A stretch of 64,000 nt of DNA from Candidatus Melainabacteria bacterium (GTDB lineage Bacteria > Cyanobacteriota > Vampirovibrionia > Obscuribacterales > Obscuribacteraceae): NCBI GenBank assembly GCA_003963305.1, contig RXJR01000004.1, positions 494,562 through 558,561 on the forward strand, read 5' to 3'. Under the pieces are notes generated by a model, which saw only the letters and a list, made by a program, of their open reading frames with translations, had not been told where the DNA came from and ran no database searches. Position numbers and translations under genes: made by a program. This document shows, in pieces, positions 18,667 to 36,593 of this stretch. Numbering within the stretch: the stretch's first letter is position 1; each line of letters opens with the position of its first letter.

Positions 18667-19680
18667 ATGGGTGGCGATTTAAACCAAATCATCAGCCAGG
18701 CGAACTGGTTAGGCGCCCTGAAACAATTCGTTCAAATCATGATTATCTGCTACTGCGCCATCTGGATATGGCGCCGGATAGTCGGTACGCAAGCCGAGCG
18801 ATTGGTCAAGGGCGTGATGGTTCTGATCGGCGTCGCAGTAATCTCCTACTTTGCCGGATTCACTCTTGTCACTTCTATCCTACAGCACCTGATACCAGTA
18901 GCGGTGATGGCGCTCGTCATCATTTTTCAACCAGAGATTCGACGGGGACTGGGCTATCTAGGAAGAATGAACACCTTCAGAATCGATTTCTCCTTGCCGA
19001 ATCGCGACGTTGACAATACCAGACACGATATCGCTCAAATAATTTCAGCAGTTCGAGATCTCTCTAGAAGCAAAACCGGCGCACTTATAGTGGTTGAACC
19101 ACCAGAAGGAGAACGAGATTATCTCAGCCCCGGAACTCCGGTAAATGCAGACATTTCCTCCAATCTTCTGCTCTCAATCTTCTTTCCAAAATCACCACTA
19201 CACGACGGCGCAGTCGTCATCCGCCACAACAAAATTGTCGCAGCCGGCGTGATCTTGCCGATGACCGACGATCCAAAATTGAGTTCGCGATATGGAACGA
19301 GACACCGCGCCGCTATTGGACTATCCGAAATTTATGACGGCTTGTGCATCGTCGTCTCAGAGGAAACTGGCGCCATATCGGCAGCCAACCGCGGTATTCT
19401 CGCCCGTTACAGCACGGCTGACGATTTGATGGACCCACTATCATACATGTACCTGAAAGACGCAGACCGCAAATCTCCAACCCCGCTGGATTCCTTTCTG
19501 TCAATGCTCGGTCGCACCAAATCGAATACTGCCACCAGAGATAGTGGCGAACAGGAAAACCAATCAGACAGTGAACAAGTTAGCGACCCATCTCTCAAAC
19601 CGTCACTTGAAGTCGCCCCCGTCAAAGAGAGCAATGTTTCCCAGATCAAAAGTTCAGTGGAATCGGAAAAAGCGGTTTAA
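18667..19680 (+). CDS. cdaA: Membrane diadenylate cyclase (CdaA type)
   Basis: A 337-residue enzyme that forms c-di-AMP from two ATP at the membrane. Three N-terminal transmembrane helices (residues about 18-95) are followed by a DisA_N/DAC domain with the catalytic LHDGA motif and the GTRHRAA motif that binds ATP phosphates. The last 75 residues are a polar Ser/Glu-rich tail that is probably disordered. RBS AAGGGGTTAG precedes ATG 18667. The usual partner genes (ybbR, glmM) do not follow; the next gene is convergent. Confidence 0.94.
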   Translation: MGGDLNQIISQANWLGALKQFVQIMIICYCAIWIWRRIVGTQAERLVKGVMVLIGVAVISYFAGFTLVTSILQHLIPVAVMALVIIFQPEIRRGLGYLGRMNTFRIDFSLPNRDVDNTRHDIAQIISAVRDLSRSKTGALIVVEPPEGERDYLSPGTPVNADISSNLLLSIFFPKSPLHDGAVVIRHNKIVAAGVILPMTDDPKLSSRYGTRHRAAIGLSEIYDGLCIVVSEETGAISAANRGILARYSTADDLMDPLSYMYLKDADRKSPTPLDSFLSMLGRTKSNTATRDSGEQENQSDSEQVSDPSLKPSLEVAPVKESNVSQIKSSVESEKAV

Positions 19681-20495: not shown

Positions 20496-21707
20496 TCACT
20501 CAGCGCGAGTCCACGTCAAACGCCTGCGCGCCGCATCACAGAAAAGCCAGAGCGGATGCAGCGCAAAATAGAGAAAAAATAGAGGCTCAGGCAATTTTAG
20601 TCTCAAAAGGTCAGGAACTGTAGGCTGTAAAAATTCCCGCGCTAAAAAGCGAAACTTGGCCTGCGCTCCAGACAACAGAGTTGCACTGAACTTGCAGTAG
20701 CGAACCATGAGACCTTCACCCTCCAGCTTCATAGCAGGCAGGTTGTGCACCACATCTTCAACAAGTGACTCTAATGTTTTCGTCTTTCTCTCAAGTGCGA
20801 TGGACGGCAACTTAGAATCGAAGAAGCGATTCGACAGAAGCAGTCCTAATGTCACCATCTCGCTGACATTAAGTCGGTCGGCAAAGTCATAAACTCTGCG
20901 CCAATCAAAATCTTGACAGTTGTCCAACAACTGAGCGATGTCACAAATCCAGATCAGACGATCCCAGGCATGCTTTGAGGCATGAGCAGTGAGCACCACA
21001 AACAAAAGATTTGGCTCGATGGTTCGTACAGTACGCCCCTCCAGAGAAATTTCTACCGTATTGGCGAGAACTTCAGTTGAAGTCAACGGCAAAAGATGCG
21101 AAGGCTGCACCTCCCAGTGAACATCGATTACGCCCGTAGGAAATTGCCTGGCAAATGTATGCTCTGTCGTTACCGATAAAAAACGGTCAGACTGAAAAAA
21201 CGATTCGCTAAGAGGAGGATCACGTTCGGGCAAGGGCTTGTAGCCGAGAGTGAGCAATTGTTTCTGCGTCGTCTTCACGTCCTTTTTGTCGACAAAAACA
21301 TCCACATCACCAAACTCACGTAAAAACAAATCGTTGTAAGCAAGCAAGGCTAAAGCTGGTCCTTTGAAGATAGCCGACTTTACGCCCTGTTTTTCCAGTT
21401 CTCTGTAAAAACGGAGAAACGTACCAACCAACGCTAAATTCTGCGTCGATATCTGCTTCATGCGAACGTTTAATTGGGATATCACTTCGCCTGGCACATC
21501 AGTCTCGAAGTGCGCCTTCACATGTTTCATAAAAGCCGGCACTACGCCATGAAAGGCAGCAGCAGAAAGAAGATATGACCAGTCAAGCCCATCTTTAGCC
21601 AGCCCCTTCGCCCGCTTAAGACGCGATTCCGGCAAAGAGGGCAGCGCAAGACAAACGAGGAACTCGAGTTCCTTTGCATGTGTCAGGCTTACAGGGAAGT
21701 TCAACAT
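20496..21707 (-). CDS. NTP_transf_5-type nucleotidyltransferase family protein
   Basis: A 403-residue protein. The family signature is FKGPALALLAYNDLFLREFGDVDVFVDKKDV, where the GDVDVFV acidic pair is the metal site of the nucleotidyltransferase fold; VIDVHWEV later also fits. Members of this uncharacterised family occur beside lasso-peptide and exopolysaccharide genes, often with PqqD-like and HPr-kinase-like proteins; here such genes lie divergently 3 kb away. It starts 6 bp after the epimerase stop, so they are cotranscribed. Substrate unknown. Confidence 0.82.
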   Translation of the reverse strand: MLNFPVSLTHAKELEFLVCLALPSLPESRLKRAKGLAKDGLDWSYLLSAAAFHGVVPAFMKHVKAHFETDVPGEVISQLNVRMKQISTQNLALVGTFLRFYRELEKQGVKSAIFKGPALALLAYNDLFLREFGDVDVFVDKKDVKTTQKQLLTLGYKPLPERDPPLSESFFQSDRFLSVTTEHTFARQFPTGVIDVHWEVQPSHLLPLTSTEVLANTVEISLEGRTVRTIEPNLLFVVLTAHASKHAWDRLIWICDIAQLLDNCQDFDWRRVYDFADRLNVSEMVTLGLLLSNRFFDSKLPSIALERKTKTLESLVEDVVHNLPAMKLEGEGLMVRYCKFSATLLSGAQAKFRFLAREFLQPTVPDLLRLKLPEPLFFLYFALHPLWLFCDAARRRLTWTRAE

Positions 21708-24709: not shown

Positions 24710-25033
24710 ATGCAGCAAACACGGGCATCCTGGGAAAATGACATCTCGTTTTACCTGTCGGAATCCAAGCGCATGTTGAAGACAAAAGAAGAGATCATCT
24801 GGCGTGTCGTCGATGACGAGGCATTGCTCCTCGACACTGACAGCGGCTACTACTTCTCGATGAATGACACAGCTACCGAGATCTGGTGCCTCCTCAACGA
24901 AGGCAAAAGCATCGACGACGTCGCGACGACGATATCTGAACGCTACGAAATCGACAGCGAAAGCGTCAGACGCGATGTTCAGGAGCTGATTGCCAACTTG
25001 AACAAAGAACAGATCGCCAGCCTTGGAGAATAG
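24710..25033 (+). CDS. PqqD-like RiPP recognition element protein
   Basis: 107 residues matching the PqqD fold: IIWRVVDDEALLLDTDSGYY, FSMNDTATEIWCLLNEGKS, and a C-terminal helix VRRDVQELIANL. Such stand-alone recognition elements bind leader peptides of ribosomal peptide precursors and hand them to modifying enzymes. The next gene, 4 nt on, encodes a peptide with the cognate YxxPxL leader motif. ATG 24710 is preferred; GTG 24662 and ATG 24773 are alternatives. First gene of a seven-gene operon with a kinase-like protein and glycosyltransferases. Confidence 0.88.
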   Translation: MQQTRASWENDISFYLSESKRMLKTKEEIIWRVVDDEALLLDTDSGYYFSMNDTATEIWCLLNEGKSIDDVATTISERYEIDSESVRRDVQELIANLNKEQIASLGE

Positions 25034-25037
25034 TCAA

Positions 25038-25190
25038 ATGAGCGACACCACTTCCCAGCCGGTACAAACCGAAAAGCATGAAGATCTCAAGACTGCTGCG
25101 GAGAAACCAGCCGAAAAGAAACAATACAAGAAGCCGGAACTTCGCAAATACACACAGATCGATTATGTCACCGCATATGGTGTCGATTAG
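25038..25190 (+). CDS. Small peptide with lasso-type leader motif and almost no core
   Basis: A 50-residue peptide read directly from the sequence (ATG 25038, TAG 25188). The first 28 residues are polar and Lys/Glu-rich. Residues 30-45 follow the lasso-precursor leader consensus YxxPxLxxxGxxxxxT: Tyr30, Pro33, Leu35 and Thr45 match, while Thr39 replaces Gly. Only AYGVD follows Thr45, so there is no room for a lasso ring and tail. It sits 4 nt after the PqqD-like gene and 6 nt before the kinase-like gene. It may be a carrier or tag peptide, or a degenerate precursor. Confidence 0.78.
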   Translation: MSDTTSQPVQTEKHEDLKTAAEKPAEKKQYKKPELRKYTQIDYVTAYGVD

Positions 25191-25196
25191 GTTTTA

Positions 25197-26270
25197 ATGC
25201 ATCTGAAACCGGTTGAATCAAGCTGCGATAAAAGCGTCTACGAGTTCGAGATTCTGCTGCACTTCCTCTCCCTGGAAGTCAAAACGCACAGCCAGCGCAT
25301 CCACAAGTGGCTCACGAGTTACTACAGTCCTTACGATCAACGCGATATCTTCAGCGACCACTCAGCATCCTATAAACTCGAACTGGAAGAGATAGGTTCG
25401 GTCTTTGCCCACGACCTGGAAACTTCAGGCGAGGGAGTTTTCACTAAATTCTGCCTGGCCAATTCCCACTGCCATTACAGAGATGGAGTCTTCTACTCCA
25501 ATGGAGAAGGTCAATTTGCGCACCAGATCGAAATAGACGTTCGTCGACGCTCGATGCGTGCAAACATCGGTGGCGAATTTATCGAGTCAGAAGAGAGCTT
25601 TATCTACAACGTAATGCGTGATGTACTCGGTAAGCTCTTGCTGCCTCTCAATAATCTTATGAGCATGCACGGAGCAGTAGTAACAAATGGCTCCAGAACG
25701 ATATTTCTGGCCGGTGACAAGGGCATGGGTAAAAGCACCATCTCCCTCAAGCTGCTGGAAAACGGTTATCGCATTCTCTCAGACGACAGCCCGTTGTTTA
25801 CCTTCATTGACGGTAGGACCTTGGTTCTATCATCACTGGACGAATTGAGCGTAACTACCAACACGCTTAAACTATTTCCGAGTCTGAACGAATTCGTCTC
25901 ACGTCAACGCGAAATCTCTGGAAAACACTTTGTCTCTCGATCAGCCCTCGGGAAAGAGAAGGTTGCGTCTGGACCATTGCCAATTACTGATTTCATTGAG
26001 TTGAAGCGAGGTCCCTGCCAACAGCCGAGCCTGACGGAAGTCAGTAAAAATAAAGTTACCGGTGATCTGATCAGGGAGTTCATGTCGATTTTCGGTCCAC
26101 AAATCACACTCTCTTCAGATCCGAAGCTTTTCAAACGAGCTACAAAATTCATATTCGACACGACCAGCGCGATGCTCCTGGAAGCCCGAGCCTTCGAGCT
26201 TCGTTATGACGACCGGGATCTGGAAAAGATACCAGAGCTAATCGCATCCACCACTGGTGGTGCAAGATGA
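25197..26270 (+). CDS. HPr-kinase-like P-loop protein
   Basis: 357 residues. The C-terminal half has MHGA (157-160), a Walker A loop GDKGMGKS (173-180) and SDDSPLF (195-201), the order seen in HprK-related kinases of RiPP and polysaccharide loci. The N-terminal 130 residues are a variable domain. In paeninodin-type lasso clusters a related kinase phosphorylates the precursor's C-terminal Ser; here the neighbouring peptide ends in Asp, so another substrate is likely. It overlaps the first GT4 gene by 4 nt (ATGA). Confidence 0.82.
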   Translation: MHLKPVESSCDKSVYEFEILLHFLSLEVKTHSQRIHKWLTSYYSPYDQRDIFSDHSASYKLELEEIGSVFAHDLETSGEGVFTKFCLANSHCHYRDGVFYSNGEGQFAHQIEIDVRRRSMRANIGGEFIESEESFIYNVMRDVLGKLLLPLNNLMSMHGAVVTNGSRTIFLAGDKGMGKSTISLKLLENGYRILSDDSPLFTFIDGRTLVLSSLDELSVTTNTLKLFPSLNEFVSRQREISGKHFVSRSALGKEKVASGPLPITDFIELKRGPCQQPSLTEVSKNKVTGDLIREFMSIFGPQITLSSDPKLFKRATKFIFDTTSAMLLEARAFELRYDDRDLEKIPELIASTTGGAR

Positions 26271-27712
26271 GCGGCGCGCTATTTTGCCTGGCCAACGCCT
26301 CCATAAGCGGCGGTAATAAAGCAATTCTCGAATACGCCAGGGGACTAAAGCGCAGCGGTCAAACTGCTGAGATTTACATATGGCACGCAGATAAAAACCT
26401 GGACTGGTTCGACCATGAACTGACGGTAGTTCAAGCACCGGATATTGAAACTGCCGTAAGCGGCAACTACGCTGTCGTCTTTTTCGCAAAGGCATTTCTC
26501 ATCCCACTGGCATTTTCTTCTCTCAACTCTGCAAAACCGGTGTTCATCTGTCACGATTTTGAAAGCGCCTATGCAGCTACATCATTCGACTCAATCAACC
26601 TGGAGTGCCCTCCTTTTGATGACGTCTTACGCTTGCCCATCGACATCATTACGACCTCGAGACCTGTTCAACAAATCATCAGCGAGCGCCACCAAAAGCA
26701 TGCCTATTATGTGCCTCTGGCTATCGATAAAGAATTGTTTTCCAAGCAGTCAGGCCCTGCGAAAGAACGCGCCCGCAAAAGAATTCTCATGGTGGGAGAC
26801 CATCTACTACCGACTAAGGGGATTCGGGACGGACTGAGGGCATTGAAGCTCCTGAACGACGAGCTGCCGGTGGAACTCGTCTTGATTACTCGAGAACACC
26901 GCGGTCAGCAGATCTTCGAGAATCTCGGATACCCGTGCGAAATTCACATACGCCCTGACGCAGAAGAATTCCCCCACATCTACGCAAGTTGCGACGCCTA
27001 TTGTTGCACTTCCTGGTACGAAGGATTTGGATTACCCGCGCTTGAAGCATTCAGAATGGGGATTCCCGTCGTTTCAACCAGAAACTCCGGCGTCACCAAC
27101 TATGGTATCGACGAAGAGAACCTGCTGCTGTGCAACCCAAATGACCCGACCGACTTATGCCAGAAACTGAGAAGGGTTCTTAAAGAGGAAAAGCTCCGCA
27201 ACAAGCTTATTGAACAGGGGGAGATGACCGAAGACAAGTTCAATTGGGAACTCGCCGTGACTGAATTTCTTGCCTGTCAGCAGAAGATTCTTACCGACTC
27301 CGGCACAAAGACAAGAGTGACAGAATCACAGCTCGAAAAATTACTTGTTAATCTCGAAGAGGGCGGGCTCTATACACCACACGCAGTGCACGTACGATGC
27401 AGCCACATTTTTCACGAAATCGACAAAGTTCTCATGCAGCTGACCGAACAACGCATCGACTTGCTGCCGGGGTTGGAAAAGTTGCAAGGATTACGTGACG
27501 AGTTGAAACCGTTCCTTGCCATGCCGGGCGCCGAATACTACAAAAGCTGCAAAAAACGCTATGACCTCTGTCAACTAGTCATAGGTTTAGCAGATGATCA
27601 TCGCTTTCTCGAACACCTTTCCAAGCTAATCGCTCAAATCAACAGGCTTGAATCAGCAGTTCCCGCCGCAGACAGGAACAGCCCTGTAGTAGCAGGGAGT
27701 AGCCGCTCATGA
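26267..27712 (+). CDS. GT4-family glycosyltransferase with C-terminal extension (copy 1)
   Basis: 481 residues. The GT-B C-domain shows RILMVGDHLLPTKG, then YASCDAYCCTSWYEGFGLPALEAF with the E-x7-E pair that binds the nucleotide-sugar donor. The N-terminus (LFCLANASISGGNKAILEYA) matches copies 2 and 3. After about residue 350 comes an extension of some 125 residues containing LEEGGLYTP and YDLCQ, shared by all three copies and unknown to me elsewhere. It overlaps its neighbours by 4 nt at both ends, so translation is tightly coupled. Confidence 0.88.
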   Translation: MSGALFCLANASISGGNKAILEYARGLKRSGQTAEIYIWHADKNLDWFDHELTVVQAPDIETAVSGNYAVVFFAKAFLIPLAFSSLNSAKPVFICHDFESAYAATSFDSINLECPPFDDVLRLPIDIITTSRPVQQIISERHQKHAYYVPLAIDKELFSKQSGPAKERARKRILMVGDHLLPTKGIRDGLRALKLLNDELPVELVLITREHRGQQIFENLGYPCEIHIRPDAEEFPHIYASCDAYCCTSWYEGFGLPALEAFRMGIPVVSTRNSGVTNYGIDEENLLLCNPNDPTDLCQKLRRVLKEEKLRNKLIEQGEMTEDKFNWELAVTEFLACQQKILTDSGTKTRVTESQLEKLLVNLEEGGLYTPHAVHVRCSHIFHEIDKVLMQLTEQRIDLLPGLEKLQGLRDELKPFLAMPGAEYYKSCKKRYDLCQLVIGLADDHRFLEHLSKLIAQINRLESAVPAADRNSPVVAGSSRS

Positions 27713-28460: not shown

Positions 28461-29831
28461 ATGTACAGAACACTGTTTTGCCTGGACAGCGATTCGATTA
28501 GCGGCGGTATCAAACTGTGTCGAGAGATTATGCAGGCACTTCAGAACGATGGACAGGAAGTTGCATACCTCGTCTGGAATTCACGACGGAGATTCGAGGG
28601 ATGGAACAACCTGCCTGTTGAAAGAATCGAGAGAATCGAGGATATCGCCGCCAAAAACTTCGATTTTGTAGTTTTCTCCAACGCCTACTTAGCACCACTT
28701 ATATTGCCCTTTGTTGGGAACGCTCATCCTGTCTTGTACTACATGGCCCACGAAAGCTATCATTACGGCTCGACATACGCCGAGTGTATGACTGAGTCAG
28801 AAGCATTTCTGAATATTCTGCGCTTGCCGATTTCAATAGTCTCAATTTCGGAAGCACTCAGAACCATACTCATGAGCAAAACGGGACGTCATTCGTACTA
28901 CATCCCGGTTGGTCCAGACAAAAAATTCTTCACTCCACGCCCTCCGAAAGACCGTAGCGCATCTCGAAAGCGCATCTTGCTGGTCGGTGATTACAATCTG
29001 AACTGGAAAGGCATGCAAGACGCTCTCACCGCTGTCGAGATGCTCTCACACGACGTGAATGTCGAGCTTGTGCTCATAACTCAGGGAAGGCATGGTAGAA
29101 AAATATTCGACCACTACGAATTTCCCATTGAAATAAACTACCAACCACCGCTCGCAGCAATACCGGACATTTATGCCAGCTGCCACGTCTACTGCTGTTC
29201 GTCTTGGCATGAAGGACTTGGACTGGCAGCCCTGGAAGCCTTCAGCTGCGGGGTCCCTGCCGTGTGCACCCGAAACCACGGCGTCGATGATTACGGAGTG
29301 GACAACGAATCAGTACTCCTCGCTGAGCCGAACAATCCGCAGGACCTGTGCAATAAACTCAAAGTAATTTTGACAGACGAGGTTCTGTCTTCGAAATTAC
29401 GAAAAAATGCCTTTGATCAGGCCAAAAGATACGAACCTGGCAAAGTCTTGCAAGCATGGAAAGAAGCGCAACAACAGATTCTCTCCGAGCCTCTTGCAGT
29501 CGTCGAAGCTGCCGAAATGAATCAACTTTTGACTGCATTAGAAGAGGAAGGTATGTATACCCCACTGGTGACACTAGATGCATTGCAGAATTTGAATAGC
29601 GCTATCGATTCCATATGCGATGATTTATTGAATCAGCGCCTACAAGCAGATCAAGGTATTGAGCGGCTATCAGCTATAAGAAATGAGCTGAAACAATACA
29701 CGCAGAATACGAATACTCAATATTTCAAATCTTTCAAAGCCGGCTATGACTTATGCCAGCTGCTGATCGCGTTCAAAGATGCTCCTGATTTCTTAAAGTG
29801 TGTTTCGACTCTATCAGCGCGGAACAAGTGA
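28461..29831 (+). CDS. GT4-family glycosyltransferase with C-terminal extension (copy 2)
   Basis: 456 residues, paralogous to copies 1 and 3. Shared parts are the N-terminal LFCLDSDSISGG, the donor-binding SSWHEGLGLAALEAF E-x7-E region, VYCCSSW, and the C-terminal extension with LEEEGMYTP and YDLCQ. In copy 2 the usual YEGFGLP becomes HEGLGLA, a modest change that could alter donor choice. It starts 20 bp after the GT2 gene. Confidence 0.87.
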   Translation: MYRTLFCLDSDSISGGIKLCREIMQALQNDGQEVAYLVWNSRRRFEGWNNLPVERIERIEDIAAKNFDFVVFSNAYLAPLILPFVGNAHPVLYYMAHESYHYGSTYAECMTESEAFLNILRLPISIVSISEALRTILMSKTGRHSYYIPVGPDKKFFTPRPPKDRSASRKRILLVGDYNLNWKGMQDALTAVEMLSHDVNVELVLITQGRHGRKIFDHYEFPIEINYQPPLAAIPDIYASCHVYCCSSWHEGLGLAALEAFSCGVPAVCTRNHGVDDYGVDNESVLLAEPNNPQDLCNKLKVILTDEVLSSKLRKNAFDQAKRYEPGKVLQAWKEAQQQILSEPLAVVEAAEMNQLLTALEEEGMYTPLVTLDALQNLNSAIDSICDDLLNQRLQADQGIERLSAIRNELKQYTQNTNTQYFKSFKAGYDLCQLLIAFKDAPDFLKCVSTLSARNK

Positions 29832-29836
29832 TTCGG

Positions 29837-31243
29837 ATGAAAGGTCGCATCTTATTCTGCCTCACCAGCAACACCATCAGCGGTGCCAATCGCGTACTGC
29901 TCGAGCTGGCAGAACGAGCTTCAACAATGGGATATAAATGTGTGATTCATTTCTGGAACCCCGTTGCCAATCAGAACTGGTATCAAGAAAAAATCAGGTC
30001 ACCAGAGGCTACTTCGCATAATGCGCTGCCGGTGTTATCAGAAGAGGCAGAGATTCAAAAAGCAGTTGCAAGTGATTTTGATTTTGTCCTCTTTTCGAAT
30101 GCGTTTTTACTGCCTCTAGCTCTCCCAGCCATAAAAGACGCCCGACCTCTCTTAATTTGTCAGGGATACGAAGGCTATTGCCATGCGAATTCTTTTAAGG
30201 ATACTTTCAAAAGCAACGAAACAATGGCCAAACTCTATCAATTACCGATAGACAAAATTGCAATCTCCGAATCCGTGCAGCGCATTCTTTCGACGACTCT
30301 AGCTACAGATTCTTACCTGGTTCCACCCGCGGTAGACAAAACAGTTTTTGTTCCTATGCCTGAGCGCGAATTCACAGCCTCTCCAAAAAGAATTCTTGCG
30401 GTCGGCAACTATCTGTGGCCCCTGAAAGGAATGGCAGACCTGCGCGAAGCCTTGCAAAGCTTATCCAGTCAGCTACCAATAGAACTCGTTCTTGTAACAC
30501 AACAAAAGAAAGGACGGGAATTTTTCGACAATTGTTCTTTTCCTGTTCAGTACCATTACCAACCACCACAGCAAGAATTAGCAGCCATCTACGCCAGTTG
30601 CGATGCATACTGTTGTGCTTCATGGTACGAGGGTTTTGGACTGCCTTGCCTGGAAGCATTTTCTGTCGGACTACCGGTCGTTTGCACAGCCAATCAAGGT
30701 GTCTCCGACTTCGGGCTGGACGAAGTCAACCTTCTCATAGCGACGCCAAATGATTCTCGAAGCATCGAGAATCAACTAAAGAGAATATTGACTGACAAAA
30801 ACCTGATCCAAAAACTCCGCCTCAACGGACGAAAAACGCTTGAACAGTACAACTGGGATCTGACAATGAAAGCTTTCGAACAGTGCCTTGATCGATGCAA
30901 ACAAAAACAACCAGTGCCGATATCAGAAGACGTTCTGCAGACACTGAACATTGAACTGGAAGAGTCCGGACTGTACACGCCCCTGGCACGCCACAAACAG
31001 CTGACTCTATTATCAGAGCGACTGGAAGAGACATTGAAGAATCTGAAAACAACCGCTCAAGATTCGAACGCAATAAATTCGCTGCGTGACATTCGAGATT
31101 TGCTTGTCCCGGAATTGTCGAACAAAAACTCTGAGCTGTATCAGCAGTTTAAAGCTCGTTATGACCTCTGTCAGATGCTTCTGTCCTGCACCGACCATCC
31201 AAACTTCACTAATATTGTGCAATCACTGAGTCGGCAACAATGA
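29837..31243 (+). CDS. GT4-family glycosyltransferase with C-terminal extension (copy 3)
   Basis: About 468 residues, starting at ATG 29837 (MKGRILFCL), which aligns with the starts of copies 1 and 2 and lies 5 bp after the previous stop; the frame from 29798 adds 13 residues inside the preceding gene. Donor-site region ASWYEGFGLPCLEAF, shared extension with LEESGLYTP and YDLCQ. Last gene of the operon, followed by a long hairpin. Confidence 0.87.
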   Translation: MKGRILFCLTSNTISGANRVLLELAERASTMGYKCVIHFWNPVANQNWYQEKIRSPEATSHNALPVLSEEAEIQKAVASDFDFVLFSNAFLLPLALPAIKDARPLLICQGYEGYCHANSFKDTFKSNETMAKLYQLPIDKIAISESVQRILSTTLATDSYLVPPAVDKTVFVPMPEREFTASPKRILAVGNYLWPLKGMADLREALQSLSSQLPIELVLVTQQKKGREFFDNCSFPVQYHYQPPQQELAAIYASCDAYCCASWYEGFGLPCLEAFSVGLPVVCTANQGVSDFGLDEVNLLIATPNDSRSIENQLKRILTDKNLIQKLRLNGRKTLEQYNWDLTMKAFEQCLDRCKQKQPVPISEDVLQTLNIELEESGLYTPLARHKQLTLLSERLEETLKNLKTTAQDSNAINSLRDIRDLLVPELSNKNSELYQQFKARYDLCQMLLSCTDHPNFTNIVQSLSRQQ

Positions 31244-33212: not shown

Positions 33213-36200
33213 TCACGAAGGTGCCTTCGCAGTCACCGGTTCTTCGGCAGTCGGTTCACTACTAGACTTTTCTGACCCGGAAGCGGCAGTGCCATCGACT
33301 TTAGTCCCAGGTTCCGCAGCAACTGTGGTTTCGACTTTCGCGACAGTCTCTGTAACCGCACTGACCGGCGCAGCTTTGACGTGTCGCTGTGGACACTCAG
33401 TGCCCTTGGGCAACATGCGCTTCTCCTTGCCTTCCTTGCGGCATATATCACACTCAATCAGGTCTTTAAAACAGCGCGGACACTTCGTCGTATCCGGCGT
33501 CACAGGGCAGCTGCAAGAGACACACAACACAATCGGTGGACCTTCGAAGATGCACCTGTCACTACCCTTAGTGCATATTGTTGGTTTCTCCAGAGGCGCG
33601 TTGCAGTAAGGACAAAGATTCGCCCAGACTGAACCACAACTTGGACAGTAGCTCTTGGCGCCACCAGCCTCACTTCCTGTCTTCAAGATCATCGTCTCAG
33701 GATTCTCACGACCTAATGTCACACATCCAGGACAGAGCTCTTTCTTCGCATCGCCACGCTGAAGCGGCCAGGTCTTTTCCTGCGCCTTCTTATCTTCAAT
33801 CACAATCGCAGAACACTCAGGACACTTGCGGCTGCCCTCGTCGATTATGTGTTGACATTTTGGACACAACATTTTGCCTGGCACAATGAGCGTTTTCATT
33901 CCAGCTTTCGAACAAGCAGGGCAGAACTTTGCATCATCTGCAAGAGCGGCAGTAATGTCATGCCCAACCGGGCAAGTCTTGACGGAAGTATCCTCAGGCA
34001 CCTCATACGAAAGCCACTGTAGATAAGGGTTCGGCTCGGTGACGAACTTCACGTCTGTATGCATCGGGTTCATCTTGCGATCAGTATTTCTGTAATAATT
34101 TTCGTAATCGGCAATGCCGTTCATTGATGCCAGCGAATAAAGTGGATCGTATTGCTTCACTACTACACGTGGCTCGACATCCGAAAGAACGATATCGGTA
34201 GTGCGAAAATTCGGAATCTGCTCCTGCAAATCCTCGACCACTGTCTCTGGAATTTTGATTCCATTCAAACCGACGAACGTCACAGGCGAACTGGCAGAGC
34301 CAATCTGATGGGTCTGCACTGACCACAACGGACTGCTGTGCGCAATCATGAGCGGCAGCAGATTATCATTGGCGAAATCAAGCAACAAACTCCGTCCATC
34401 AGAATTTGTATATAAAGGTTCTTTGATTGTGCCGCTCTGGGGATCACTGGGGAAAAGCTTGTCAAAGAGCTTCTCTTTGACGAATACGCGAATCATCTCC
34501 TCCACTTTTTGTTTCTTGGAATCTGCGTCGATGGATGGATCCAGATGCATGGCGAATAATTTGCCGGCCAGTTCAGATGTAATCAGACTCTTCGTCTCAG
34601 TCGAAAGCACAGGAGAAACCGCTTTCCAGTCATTTTTCTCCCACAGTTGTGCCAGTAAACCGTCAAGAAAACGCTCCACTTCTTTTCGACCGATCAAAGA
34701 CTTGTCGATCAGCACTCTCTCCTGTGATGTATCACCCATCGTCGCTATGCGCGCGGAAAGCTTCTGCTCACCTTCCTTATTGACGACAGTGATCGTGTCC
34801 GAAAGCGACTTGATACTTGCGTGCACAGATTGGAACAGCTTGATCAGGTCATTGTAGAAATTGACCAGCATGCTGCGACTGCGACCGTCACGCCCGAAAT
34901 TATCGTAATAGTTTGCCAGGCGCTCCAGGAGAACTTCCACAGTATCTCGCAAAACGGGCAGCTGCACATCATTTGAAACGCGCTGCAGCGAATCCATCGC
35001 TTCTTTTACAGGTCTTCTGGCATCACCTTCATGCACCTCCAATGGTGGCACCTGTGCCAATTTTTGCTGCGCCAAAGCAATCAATTCCTCAAGGTACTCT
35101 CGCAGGAACACATATCCACGCTCCGGATCCTTGACGTACGATTTAAGCCCTGTATCCAGAACAGACGAAATATTACTGATTGCCTGCTTACTGGCGGATG
35201 CGGCAATCTTCTCAATCTCGAGAGGACTTTCTGGATCAACCGTTTCAGAAACAATTGTGTCCGACCATTGCTTCAACTTGTTTATGCAAGCCGGTCGATT
35301 CTGTTTGAACTCTTCAAAGAAGGCACGCGAAAGGTAACGTCCGTATGAGGCATCAGTACCAAGACTTGCTTTCAGCGTCAGCGAATCTTCTATCTTGGAC
35401 AAGTTATCTGCAAAGAATTGCTTTGCTAGAGCCTTCTCGGTGATGTCCGGGTCCGGCCTGAGCAGAAAGTCAACCACCGCATCTGTAATCTTGATTTCAA
35501 GCAGATCCTGAAAGTACGCAATCGGTGGCACCTTAACCGACGATACACCAACAGCAGAATATGCTTTATAGAAGGTGCGATCGCCCATCGTTTCCGGTTC
35601 GCTAATCGACGTAAAAATGTTGCTTAAAATCGACTCGCTCCGCTCAGTCAGAGGCGACAACACATCAGTCATGATAGTCTCAGACATATACTGTGACACA
35701 CGATCATCGGCTGCAACTGGTTTATCGCCGGAAACCTGACGCTGCGAAATCACCGCACCGCGCTTGTTTTTATTGCTGAACATGAAAGTAAAATCAAATG
35801 GTGGCACATCCTTTGGGAAATCAACAAAAGTGTGATCCTTCCCTTTGATAATGTAGGAGCGCTTGGGACTGTTGAGGAGGTAGTCCAGCTCTCTCAAGGC
35901 CGCATAGCCATTCGAGTAAATGCGCCGGATATGCTGGTTTTCCACGACCGGCTCGTATACCTCAGGCATGACAAACATGCCTATAAATCGTCGCGTCGAT
36001 GGATCTACACCGACAATTTTTCTGAGCATATAGGCAACATCCAGAAACATACCACTGCCGGTGCCACCACATATGGAGCAAATGATATAAACGAACTGCA
36101 AGGTAGGGTCGACTTCAAAATTTGTGAAATCTTCCCAGGCAGCCGGATCGGATACTTCGTGAGCAGCTTGTTGCAACCATCTGTAAGTAGTGTGCAGATT

Positions 36201-36593
36201 CTCGCCCTTGTATAAACCAATCTTGCCAAACATCCGCACTTGTCCTGAGCCACGCGCGGCTTTCGGGAAATCCACTCGCATTTCGGGATCCGGATACCAA
36301 TCCTTAATGTGCCTGTTTTCAGGTGAGTCTAGATTGCTGATGATTTGAGGAGTATCGCTTTGATCGATGACTCGCAATTCGTTTGTACCGAGCGAAATAT
36401 ACTCACCAGTGCGTTGACTGATCACAGGCGGGTTATTGACTCCAGCACTATCCGTATCGATTGACAGCAGGCGGATCCATGGCAAGTCAGCACGCCCATA
36501 AGTATCATAGATGCGGCGTTTCAAGTGCGTCAGAGCACGTTTGCCAGTGCCACCCAACCCGATTACCAGAGAAGGAATTGTCCTTATTGCCAT
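33213..36593 (-). CDS. Large tubulin/FtsZ-like GTPase with C-terminal zinc ribbons
   Basis: 1126 residues, matching the bacterial Tubulin_2-type family. The N-terminus carries SLVIGLGGTGKRAL, and the tubulin signature loop GGTGSG is at residues 176-181 (IICSICGGTGSGMFLDV). A long helical middle section (about 300-800) follows. From about 870 to 1060 there are at least nine CxxC pairs (CPAC, CPKC, CPEC, CPGC, CPSC, CPYC, CVSC, CPRC, CDIC), forming a run of zinc ribbons, then a Thr/Ala/Glu-rich tail. Such FtsZ-like proteins have been proposed to remodel membranes. GGGAG lies 10 nt before ATG 36593. Upstream on the same strand are a two-helix membrane protein and a membrane-anchored vWA protein, which are probable partners. 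Confidence 0.88.
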   Translation of the reverse strand: MAIRTIPSLVIGLGGTGKRALTHLKRRIYDTYGRADLPWIRLLSIDTDSAGVNNPPVISQRTGEYISLGTNELRVIDQSDTPQIISNLDSPENRHIKDWYPDPEMRVDFPKAARGSGQVRMFGKIGLYKGENLHTTYRWLQQAAHEVSDPAAWEDFTNFEVDPTLQFVYIICSICGGTGSGMFLDVAYMLRKIVGVDPSTRRFIGMFVMPEVYEPVVENQHIRRIYSNGYAALRELDYLLNSPKRSYIIKGKDHTFVDFPKDVPPFDFTFMFSNKNKRGAVISQRQVSGDKPVAADDRVSQYMSETIMTDVLSPLTERSESILSNIFTSISEPETMGDRTFYKAYSAVGVSSVKVPPIAYFQDLLEIKITDAVVDFLLRPDPDITEKALAKQFFADNLSKIEDSLTLKASLGTDASYGRYLSRAFFEEFKQNRPACINKLKQWSDTIVSETVDPESPLEIEKIAASASKQAISNISSVLDTGLKSYVKDPERGYVFLREYLEELIALAQQKLAQVPPLEVHEGDARRPVKEAMDSLQRVSNDVQLPVLRDTVEVLLERLANYYDNFGRDGRSRSMLVNFYNDLIKLFQSVHASIKSLSDTITVVNKEGEQKLSARIATMGDTSQERVLIDKSLIGRKEVERFLDGLLAQLWEKNDWKAVSPVLSTETKSLITSELAGKLFAMHLDPSIDADSKKQKVEEMIRVFVKEKLFDKLFPSDPQSGTIKEPLYTNSDGRSLLLDFANDNLLPLMIAHSSPLWSVQTHQIGSASSPVTFVGLNGIKIPETVVEDLQEQIPNFRTTDIVLSDVEPRVVVKQYDPLYSLASMNGIADYENYYRNTDRKMNPMHTDVKFVTEPNPYLQWLSYEVPEDTSVKTCPVGHDITAALADDAKFCPACSKAGMKTLIVPGKMLCPKCQHIIDEGSRKCPECSAIVIEDKKAQEKTWPLQRGDAKKELCPGCVTLGRENPETMILKTGSEAGGAKSYCPSCGSVWANLCPYCNAPLEKPTICTKGSDRCIFEGPPIVLCVSCSCPVTPDTTKCPRCFKDLIECDICRKEGKEKRMLPKGTECPQRHVKAAPVSAVTETVAKVETTVAAEPGTKVDGTAASGSEKSSSEPTAEEPVTAKAPS

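Follow-up and report, generated by a model that had tools for sequence, protein, structure and literature searches.

A conserved, coreless leader peptide beside PqqD-family and HprK-like genes in a melainabacterial glycan locus

The peptide gene and its neighborhood

The stretch of DNA analyzed here (the window, 64,000 nucleotides) is part of a 7.48 Mb assembly (G000) and encodes a small peptide, flanked by PqqD-family and HprK-like genes, that translates as MSDTTSQPVQTEKHEDLKTAAEKPAEKKQYKKPELRKYTQIDYVTAYGVD followed by a stop (Table 1). A GGAG sequence lies a few bases 5' of the peptide ATG as a plausible ribosome site, and the HprK-like gene starts 7 bases past the peptide stop. Upstream of the peptide, neither a sigma-70 promoter nor an Rfam element was found, and the peptide itself had no match in Pfam, NCBIfam or PDB. 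Its translation agrees with an earlier note on this DNA, which had assigned Tyr30, Pro33, Leu35 and Thr45 to a lasso-type leader with just five residues, AYGVD, downstream of Thr45. The leader motif, written as [YW]xxPx[LVIFA], occurs in 81 of the 2605 ORFs of 30-100 aa scanned from the window locus and related loci, and the motif together with Thr at +15 in 12 of the 2605; four of these 12 are the window peptide, its sister copy in genome G001 and two real lasso precursors. Judged by these counts, the motif match of the 50-aa peptide exceeds chance.

Table 1. Positions of the cluster genes in the window and of related genes at other loci.
Feature	Position	Strand	Remarks
Nucleotidyltransferase PF14907 (NTP_transf_5)	20496..21707	-	PF14907 2.6e-49; 47% identical protein in G001 cluster
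Large hydrophobic protein, 664 aa	22567..24561	-	no Pfam match; divergent neighbor, conserved in G001
Discrete PqqD-family RRE, B1-like	24710..25033	+	PF05402 E 1.7e-17; 65% identical in G001
Leader-only peptide, 50 aa	25038..25190	+	RRE motif Y30-x-x-P33-x-L35, T39, T45, terminal AYGVD
HprK-like P-loop kinase, 357 aa	25197..26270	+	HG, GxxGxGKS, DD motifs kept; 45% identical in G001
GT4 glycosyltransferase, first of three related copies	26267..27712	+	PF00534 1.8e-23
GT2 glycosyltransferase, 243 aa	27709..28440	+	PF00535 2.5e-20; 49% identical in G001
GT4 glycosyltransferase, second copy	28461..29831	+	PF00534; 44% identical to G001 cluster protein
GT4 glycosyltransferase, third copy	29798..31243	+	PF00534; 39% identical to G001 cluster protein
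PqqD, G001	L025:9515-9916
Peptide, G001	L025:9913-10089
HprK-like, G001	L025:10076-11146
574-aa protein, G001	L025:14562-16286		58% identical to the 566-aa protein
GT2 with C-terminal PqqD-type RRE, 393 aa, G001	L025:16321-17502
566-aa protein, G000	L034:4214-5914
GT2-RRE counterpart, G000	C6:194087-195244 (L034:6087-7244)		57% identical to G001's
Peptide ORF, 53 aa, G016	L056:5897-6058		motif YEKPSL, terminal AFGSM
PqqD proteins with leader-like tail	L030:4644-5117; L037:4976-5428; L039:4877-5326		common DMQDL[FL]LLDP[IV]H

The true start of the PqqD-family protein is probably the ATG at 24773 (giving 86 aa) rather than 24710, since homology to the G001 sister begins there. Its best PDB relative is the lasso B1 protein TbiB1 (1.8e-11), with TfuB1 at 1.6e-7 and designed repeat proteins ranking between the two, and its profile also matches PbaB1 and LppB, the latter from the linear polyphosphorylated peptides (LPPs) compared below. 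Two LppB residues secure the leader: N33 fixes the bend at its Pro, and D70 forms a bond with its Tyr (PMC13381572). Equivalents of both residues are kept in the window and G001 PqqD proteins, and the Trp-specific PbaB1 has Gly and Gln at these positions. Such a Tyr-type RRE pocket would fit the YKKPEL leader, and we infer binding from this agreement; the suggestion of the earlier note that the peptide is read by the neighboring PqqD protein thus gains good support from the lasso B1 relatives and the kept Asn and Asp.

The HprK-like protein retains His158, the P-loop Lys179 and Asp196. Its profile matches fall under the Pfam cut-off for PF07475 (1e-6) and below the cut-off of TIGR04352 (2e-9), and the core of its AF2 model, which is good in the core only and of moderate confidence, matches PEPCK and HprK/P structures. 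On the opposite strand of the window, the PF14907 protein is a paeninodin-type NTP transferase that we take to be of the same type as LppN, and this enzyme type presumably pairs with HprK in paeninodin-type and LPP clusters. The large hydrophobic protein shares 36% identity over 688 columns with its G001 counterpart, and no family was found for it in Pfam or NCBIfam. A CdaA-type diadenylate cyclase (18667-19680, PF02457 2.8e-39) is encoded a few genes from the cluster, and a tubulin-like protein of 1126 aa (33213-36593, PF13809 2.4e-55), with a weak zinc-ribbon match, lies on its other side.

The three GT4 genes of the window are arranged near-tandem, with the GT2 gene between the first two, and their products have in common a C-terminal stretch of ~110 residues (..GLYTP...YDLCQ..) beyond the GT4 domain. 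In G001, the counterpart of the window GT2 comes directly after HprK, and the cluster also encodes a second kind of GT2, in which PF00535 and a C-terminal PqqD-type RRE are found in one chain. The G000 gene for this fusion lies not in the window locus but on contig C6, beside counterparts of two further G001 cluster proteins, so the locus appears to be split in G000. In both genomes, a gene upstream of the GT2-RRE codes for a protein (574 aa in G001, 566 aa in G000) that has no Pfam or NCBIfam match. PF05402 scores above its cut-off in both fusions (27.5 and 32.9 vs 23.4 bits), and the best NCBIfam match of the fusion is MftF at 2.4e-35, with a score of 122 against a cut-off of 280; the AF2 model of the fusion is poor (pLDDT 37). 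A hidden RRE in the MftF N-terminus was not supported: this N-terminus showed no profile similarity to these RREs. By a search with the RRE part, the fusion is present in G000 and G001 and in no other of the 99 relatives, and because these two genomes are sisters its co-occurrence with the AYGVD form of the peptide is statistically weak. A GT2 of the same subfamily in genome G016 (32% identity over 223 residues) adjoins PqqD and is not fused to an RRE. Fusions of an RRE and a glycosyltransferase in one chain were predicted earlier via RRE-Finder (PMC7470986, PMC12710340), with PF00535 among them in the 2025 study (PMC12710340); those are prediction only, whereas here a candidate small RRE-motif peptide accompanies the fusion.

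Homologues and conservation of the C-terminal end

The peptide has a counterpart in G001, a genome of the same genus, with the gene order PqqD-peptide-HprK as in the window and with the HprK-like gene overlapping the end of the peptide gene; GT2, GT4 and NTase genes complete the set common to the two genomes. The G001 peptide is 58 aa long, has an N-terminal half unlike that of the window peptide and ends in RKFSQIDYVTAYGVD, so that the two share their last 11 residues (QIDYVTAYGVD) and stop at the same point; most of the codons for these 11 residues differ synonymously. Over the last 23 codons there are 12 synonymous differences, one of them in the stop codon, and five residue-changing differences, none of which falls within the last 11. 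This synonymous divergence over an identical C-terminus indicates that conservation acts at the protein level. Both the peptide and the kinase are missing from G002, the third member genome of this genus.

In another genus of the same family, G016 encodes a 53-aa peptide ending in QPYEKPSLEKHSDPNLWAFGSM; genes for a FemAB/GNAT protein and an HprK-like kinase come next, and GT2 and PqqD lie on the opposite strand. The alignment of homologues that the earlier note had called for shows AYGVD and the stop to be kept in G001 and AFGSM to stand at a near-equal distance from the motif in G016. The 50-residue length, whose conservation it had also named as a check, did not hold up: overall lengths are 50, 58 and 53 aa, and it is the span from the motif Tyr to the stop that is near-constant, at 21, 21 and 20 residues in the window, G001 and G016. 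Thr at position 39 in place of the usual lasso Gly, as the note had it, was borne out, with Thr or Ser at this position in the window peptide and its relatives. No homologue with a core of normal length, which would have marked the window copy as a truncation, was found.

An A[YFW]Gxx ending occurs in three of 4439 distinct small ORFs, namely these three peptides, in each of which the RRE motif precedes the stop by 18-23 residues, although the count is descriptive because the pattern was chosen after inspection of the three. Likewise, a profile search of 53 genomes of the order returned the three at E <1e-17 and the next match at 0.01, as expected by construction, given that the same three had built the profile. 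Two further profile matches were rejected: that in G022 overlaps a long ORF and lacks PqqD/HprK relatives as neighbors, and that in G036 is without PqqD/HprK context. Queried alone among the 99 relatives, the peptide found G001 only, plus weak matches in G085 and G086. A wider search, covering a phylum sample of 386 genomes, IMG/VR and plasmids with HprK, returned nothing useful, and a single contig match (L024) lies inside a methylamine dehydrogenase gene and is due to chance. The known members number three, two of them from one genus. On the codon comparison and the kept ends, the coreless leader form is maintained by selection.

The related ARRANGEMENTS is seen in G013, G025 and G034, where a PqqD protein with a C-terminal leader-like segment is followed by HprK-like and GT2 genes. 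The G013 and G034 kinases score below the Pfam cut-off, and that of G025, which has no Pfam match, owes the label HprK-like to its position and sequence pattern. These proteins hold an RRE and a possible substrate segment in one chain.

Comparison with described peptide systems

The closest described system is that of the LPPs of Bacillota, whose loci combine an RRE, an HprK kinase, an NTP transferase, a signal-peptidase-like protease and an exporter, within capsule loci and with no cyclase (PMC13381572). With the lpp cluster of Paenibacillus alginolyticus (PMC13381572), the window shares a discrete PqqD-family RRE beside the precursor, an HprK-like kinase, an NTP transferase, the lack of a macrolactam cyclase and the setting of a polysaccharide locus. 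The LPP leader motif is YxxPxVLxHQxIxFETxxS, with cleavage after the Thr and phosphorylation by LppK of the Ser three residues on (PMC13381572); the window peptide fits it at Tyr, Pro, the aliphatic residue at +5, Ile at +11 (Ile41), the aromatic residue at +13 (Tyr43) and Thr at +15, but not at His, Gln, Glu or the acceptor Ser. The leader residues behind the lasso-type reading in the earlier note stand, but the lasso label is too narrow, with positions +11, +13 and +15 behind YxxPxL agreeing with the LPP motif at least as well as with the lasso one. The LPP core that has been studied has 45 residues (PMC13381572) against five here, its phosphoserine at core position 3 corresponds to Gly48 in the window and to the equivalent Gly in G001, and neither Thr nor Tyr was accepted by LppK at its site (PMC13381572). 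The scan of cluster ORFs in the window and G001 revealed no SpI/LppS-type peptidase or MsbA-like exporter, and the several glycosyltransferases and the GT2-RRE fusion are unlike LPP loci (PMC13381572). As these defining features fail despite the LPP-like outline, we do not file the peptide as an LPP. LPPs were described as restricted to Bacillota (PMC13381572), and the present locus places an LPP-like kinase system outside that group.

Mycofactocin (MftA/MftB/MftF) offers a different likeness, with a short peptide, a tiny C-terminal core of two residues, an RRE-type chaperone and a GT2, MftF, that oligoglycosylates the peptide (PMC7491314). MftA ends in Val-Tyr and the window peptide in AYGVD, and the scanned cluster ORFs of the window and G001 include no radical SAM protein such as MftC.

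As for lasso peptides, the window peptide has the YxxPx[L/V] leader and the Thr at the penultimate leader position, but in both the window and G001 the five residues after this Thr leave no core for a ring of 7-9 residues closed by Asp/Glu plus a tail. The B2 leader peptidase (PF13471) was not found in G000, G001 or G002 and is present in G062 and G089. G000 and G001 have one Asn synthase each (E about 1e-103), on contigs other than that of the peptide, and by their scores, which are like those of asparagine synthetase itself, both are of the housekeeping type; the lasso-type Asn-synthase-like cyclases of G062 and G089 score 1e-36 to 1e-44. Ring, protease and cyclase are therefore all missing. 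Paeninodin/pseudomycoidin-type lasso peptides (PMC9266682) resemble the window system, with a B1-type RRE, an HprK-like kinase, an NTase, a YxxP/WxxP leader and Thr near the leader end, but the window differs from them in having no ring-capable core, no C-terminal Ser, and neither B2 nor a lasso cyclase in the genome.

A probable guided substrate and its alternatives

Taken together, these data describe a real, selected coreless leader peptide that is a variant of RRE-guided, HprK-associated peptide systems. Because the selected form stands beside a kinase and glycosyltransferases, the peptide probably acts as a small guided substrate or carrier, and its gene is unlikely to be a broken antibiotic gene. 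The reading we favor, with moderate confidence, is a cyclase-free, RRE-guided system in the glycan locus for which the peptide serves as dedicated substrate or carrier, becoming phosphorylated and/or glycosylated. Like the RREs of lasso and LPP systems, the PqqD protein would bind the leader, here at residues 30-35 (YKKPEL), and would hold out residues 39-50 for the HprK-like kinase and the glycosyltransferases to act on. Where the AYGVD form occurs, in G000 and G001, the GT2 with its own PqqD-type RRE could dock on the same motif. The product would be the whole peptide, or its short tail, bearing phosphate and/or sugar, and for this reason no long core would be needed.

Position 39 is our best guess for the acceptor and the first candidate, because its hydroxyl (Thr in the window, Ser in G001 and G016) is the only one conserved after the motif in the three sequences, although these are a small sample and LppK did not take Thr at its own site (PMC13381572). 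Thr45 and Tyr47 are replaced by Trp and Phe in G016, so neither can be a universal acceptor, and the terminal A-[YF]-G-x-x may serve as a recognition or active end. HprK-type RiPP kinases characterized so far act on Ser (PMC13381572), and the lack of any Ser beyond residue 30 of the window peptide counts against a kinase substrate. In characterized relatives, Ser on the peptide is phosphorylated and one NTase then adds a hexose (PMC9266682). By definition, a RiPP precursor consists of a leader and a core; here the leader is selected with the core cut to five residues, suggesting that RRE-leader docking can guide enzymes without a classical peptide product. The peptide is also a concrete candidate substrate for the RRE-glycosyltransferase fusions that have been prediction only (PMC7470986, PMC12710340).

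A role as a primer or carrier, in which the leader-only peptide starts a surface glycan, is a tentative possibility; the RRE protein and the GT2-RRE would dock on YxxPxL, and kinase, NTase and glycosyltransferases would build a phospho-glycan on the tail.

It is unlikely that the peptide instead works unmodified, as a non-covalent scaffold or allosteric adaptor that bridges PqqD, the HprK-like kinase and the GT2-RRE and switches their activity on another substrate, e.g. a glycan. No acceptor besides T/S39 is obviously conserved, the tail tolerates the Thr45 and Tyr47 replacements while keeping A-aromatic-G-x-x, two RRE proteins could compete for one motif, and the RRE proteins of G013, G025 and G034 carry a leader-like segment in their own chain, all of which would suit such an adaptor; however, the characterized paeninodin and LPP RREs deliver a peptide that gets modified (PMC13381572, PMC5067487), and such peptides receive their phospho/glyco tailoring from HprK paired with an NTase (PMC9266682).

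Cleavage of the leader near Thr45, releasing the tail (AYGVD or AFGSM), possibly modified, as a signal or a cofactor-like compound in the manner of PQQ or mycofactocin, we consider quite unlikely. The conserved tail and stop agree with a very short product, as do the cutting of LPP leaders after a Thr that aligns with Thr45 (PMC13381572) and the mycofactocin precedent (PMC7491314), with MftF the best NCBIfam match of the GT2-RRE, if far below cut-off; but Thr45 is not conserved in G016, and the cluster ORFs scanned include no signal peptidase I, B2 protease, radical SAM protein or exporter.

Very unlikely is a regulatory leader ORF, whose nascent peptide would stall ribosomes or couple translation and so set HprK expression. 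A conserved C-terminus with a variable N-terminus also suits arrest peptides, as does the closeness of the HprK start to the peptide stop in the window and its overlap in G001, yet such an ORF would leave YxxPxL beside an RRE with a Tyr-type pocket unexplained, the next gene in G016 encodes the FemAB/GNAT protein rather than HprK, and the Rfam search found no element.

That the peptide is a decaying lasso precursor whose core was lost is hardly credible and already largely refuted: its leader is lasso-like and intact lasso clusters with HprK and NTase exist in the class relatives G062 and G089, but its end is identical in the sister genome despite synonymous divergence and similar in another genus (G016), and no lasso B2 or cyclase remains to serve it, so that the 50-aa peptide is not a truncated lasso precursor. 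The clusters of these two class relatives (L028, L029) are real lasso clusters with PqqD, B2, a lasso-type cyclase, HprK and NTase, and their precursors have at least 16 residues after the Thr. G062 also encodes two PqqD-similar proteins, of 313 and 327 aa, adjoining its kinase.
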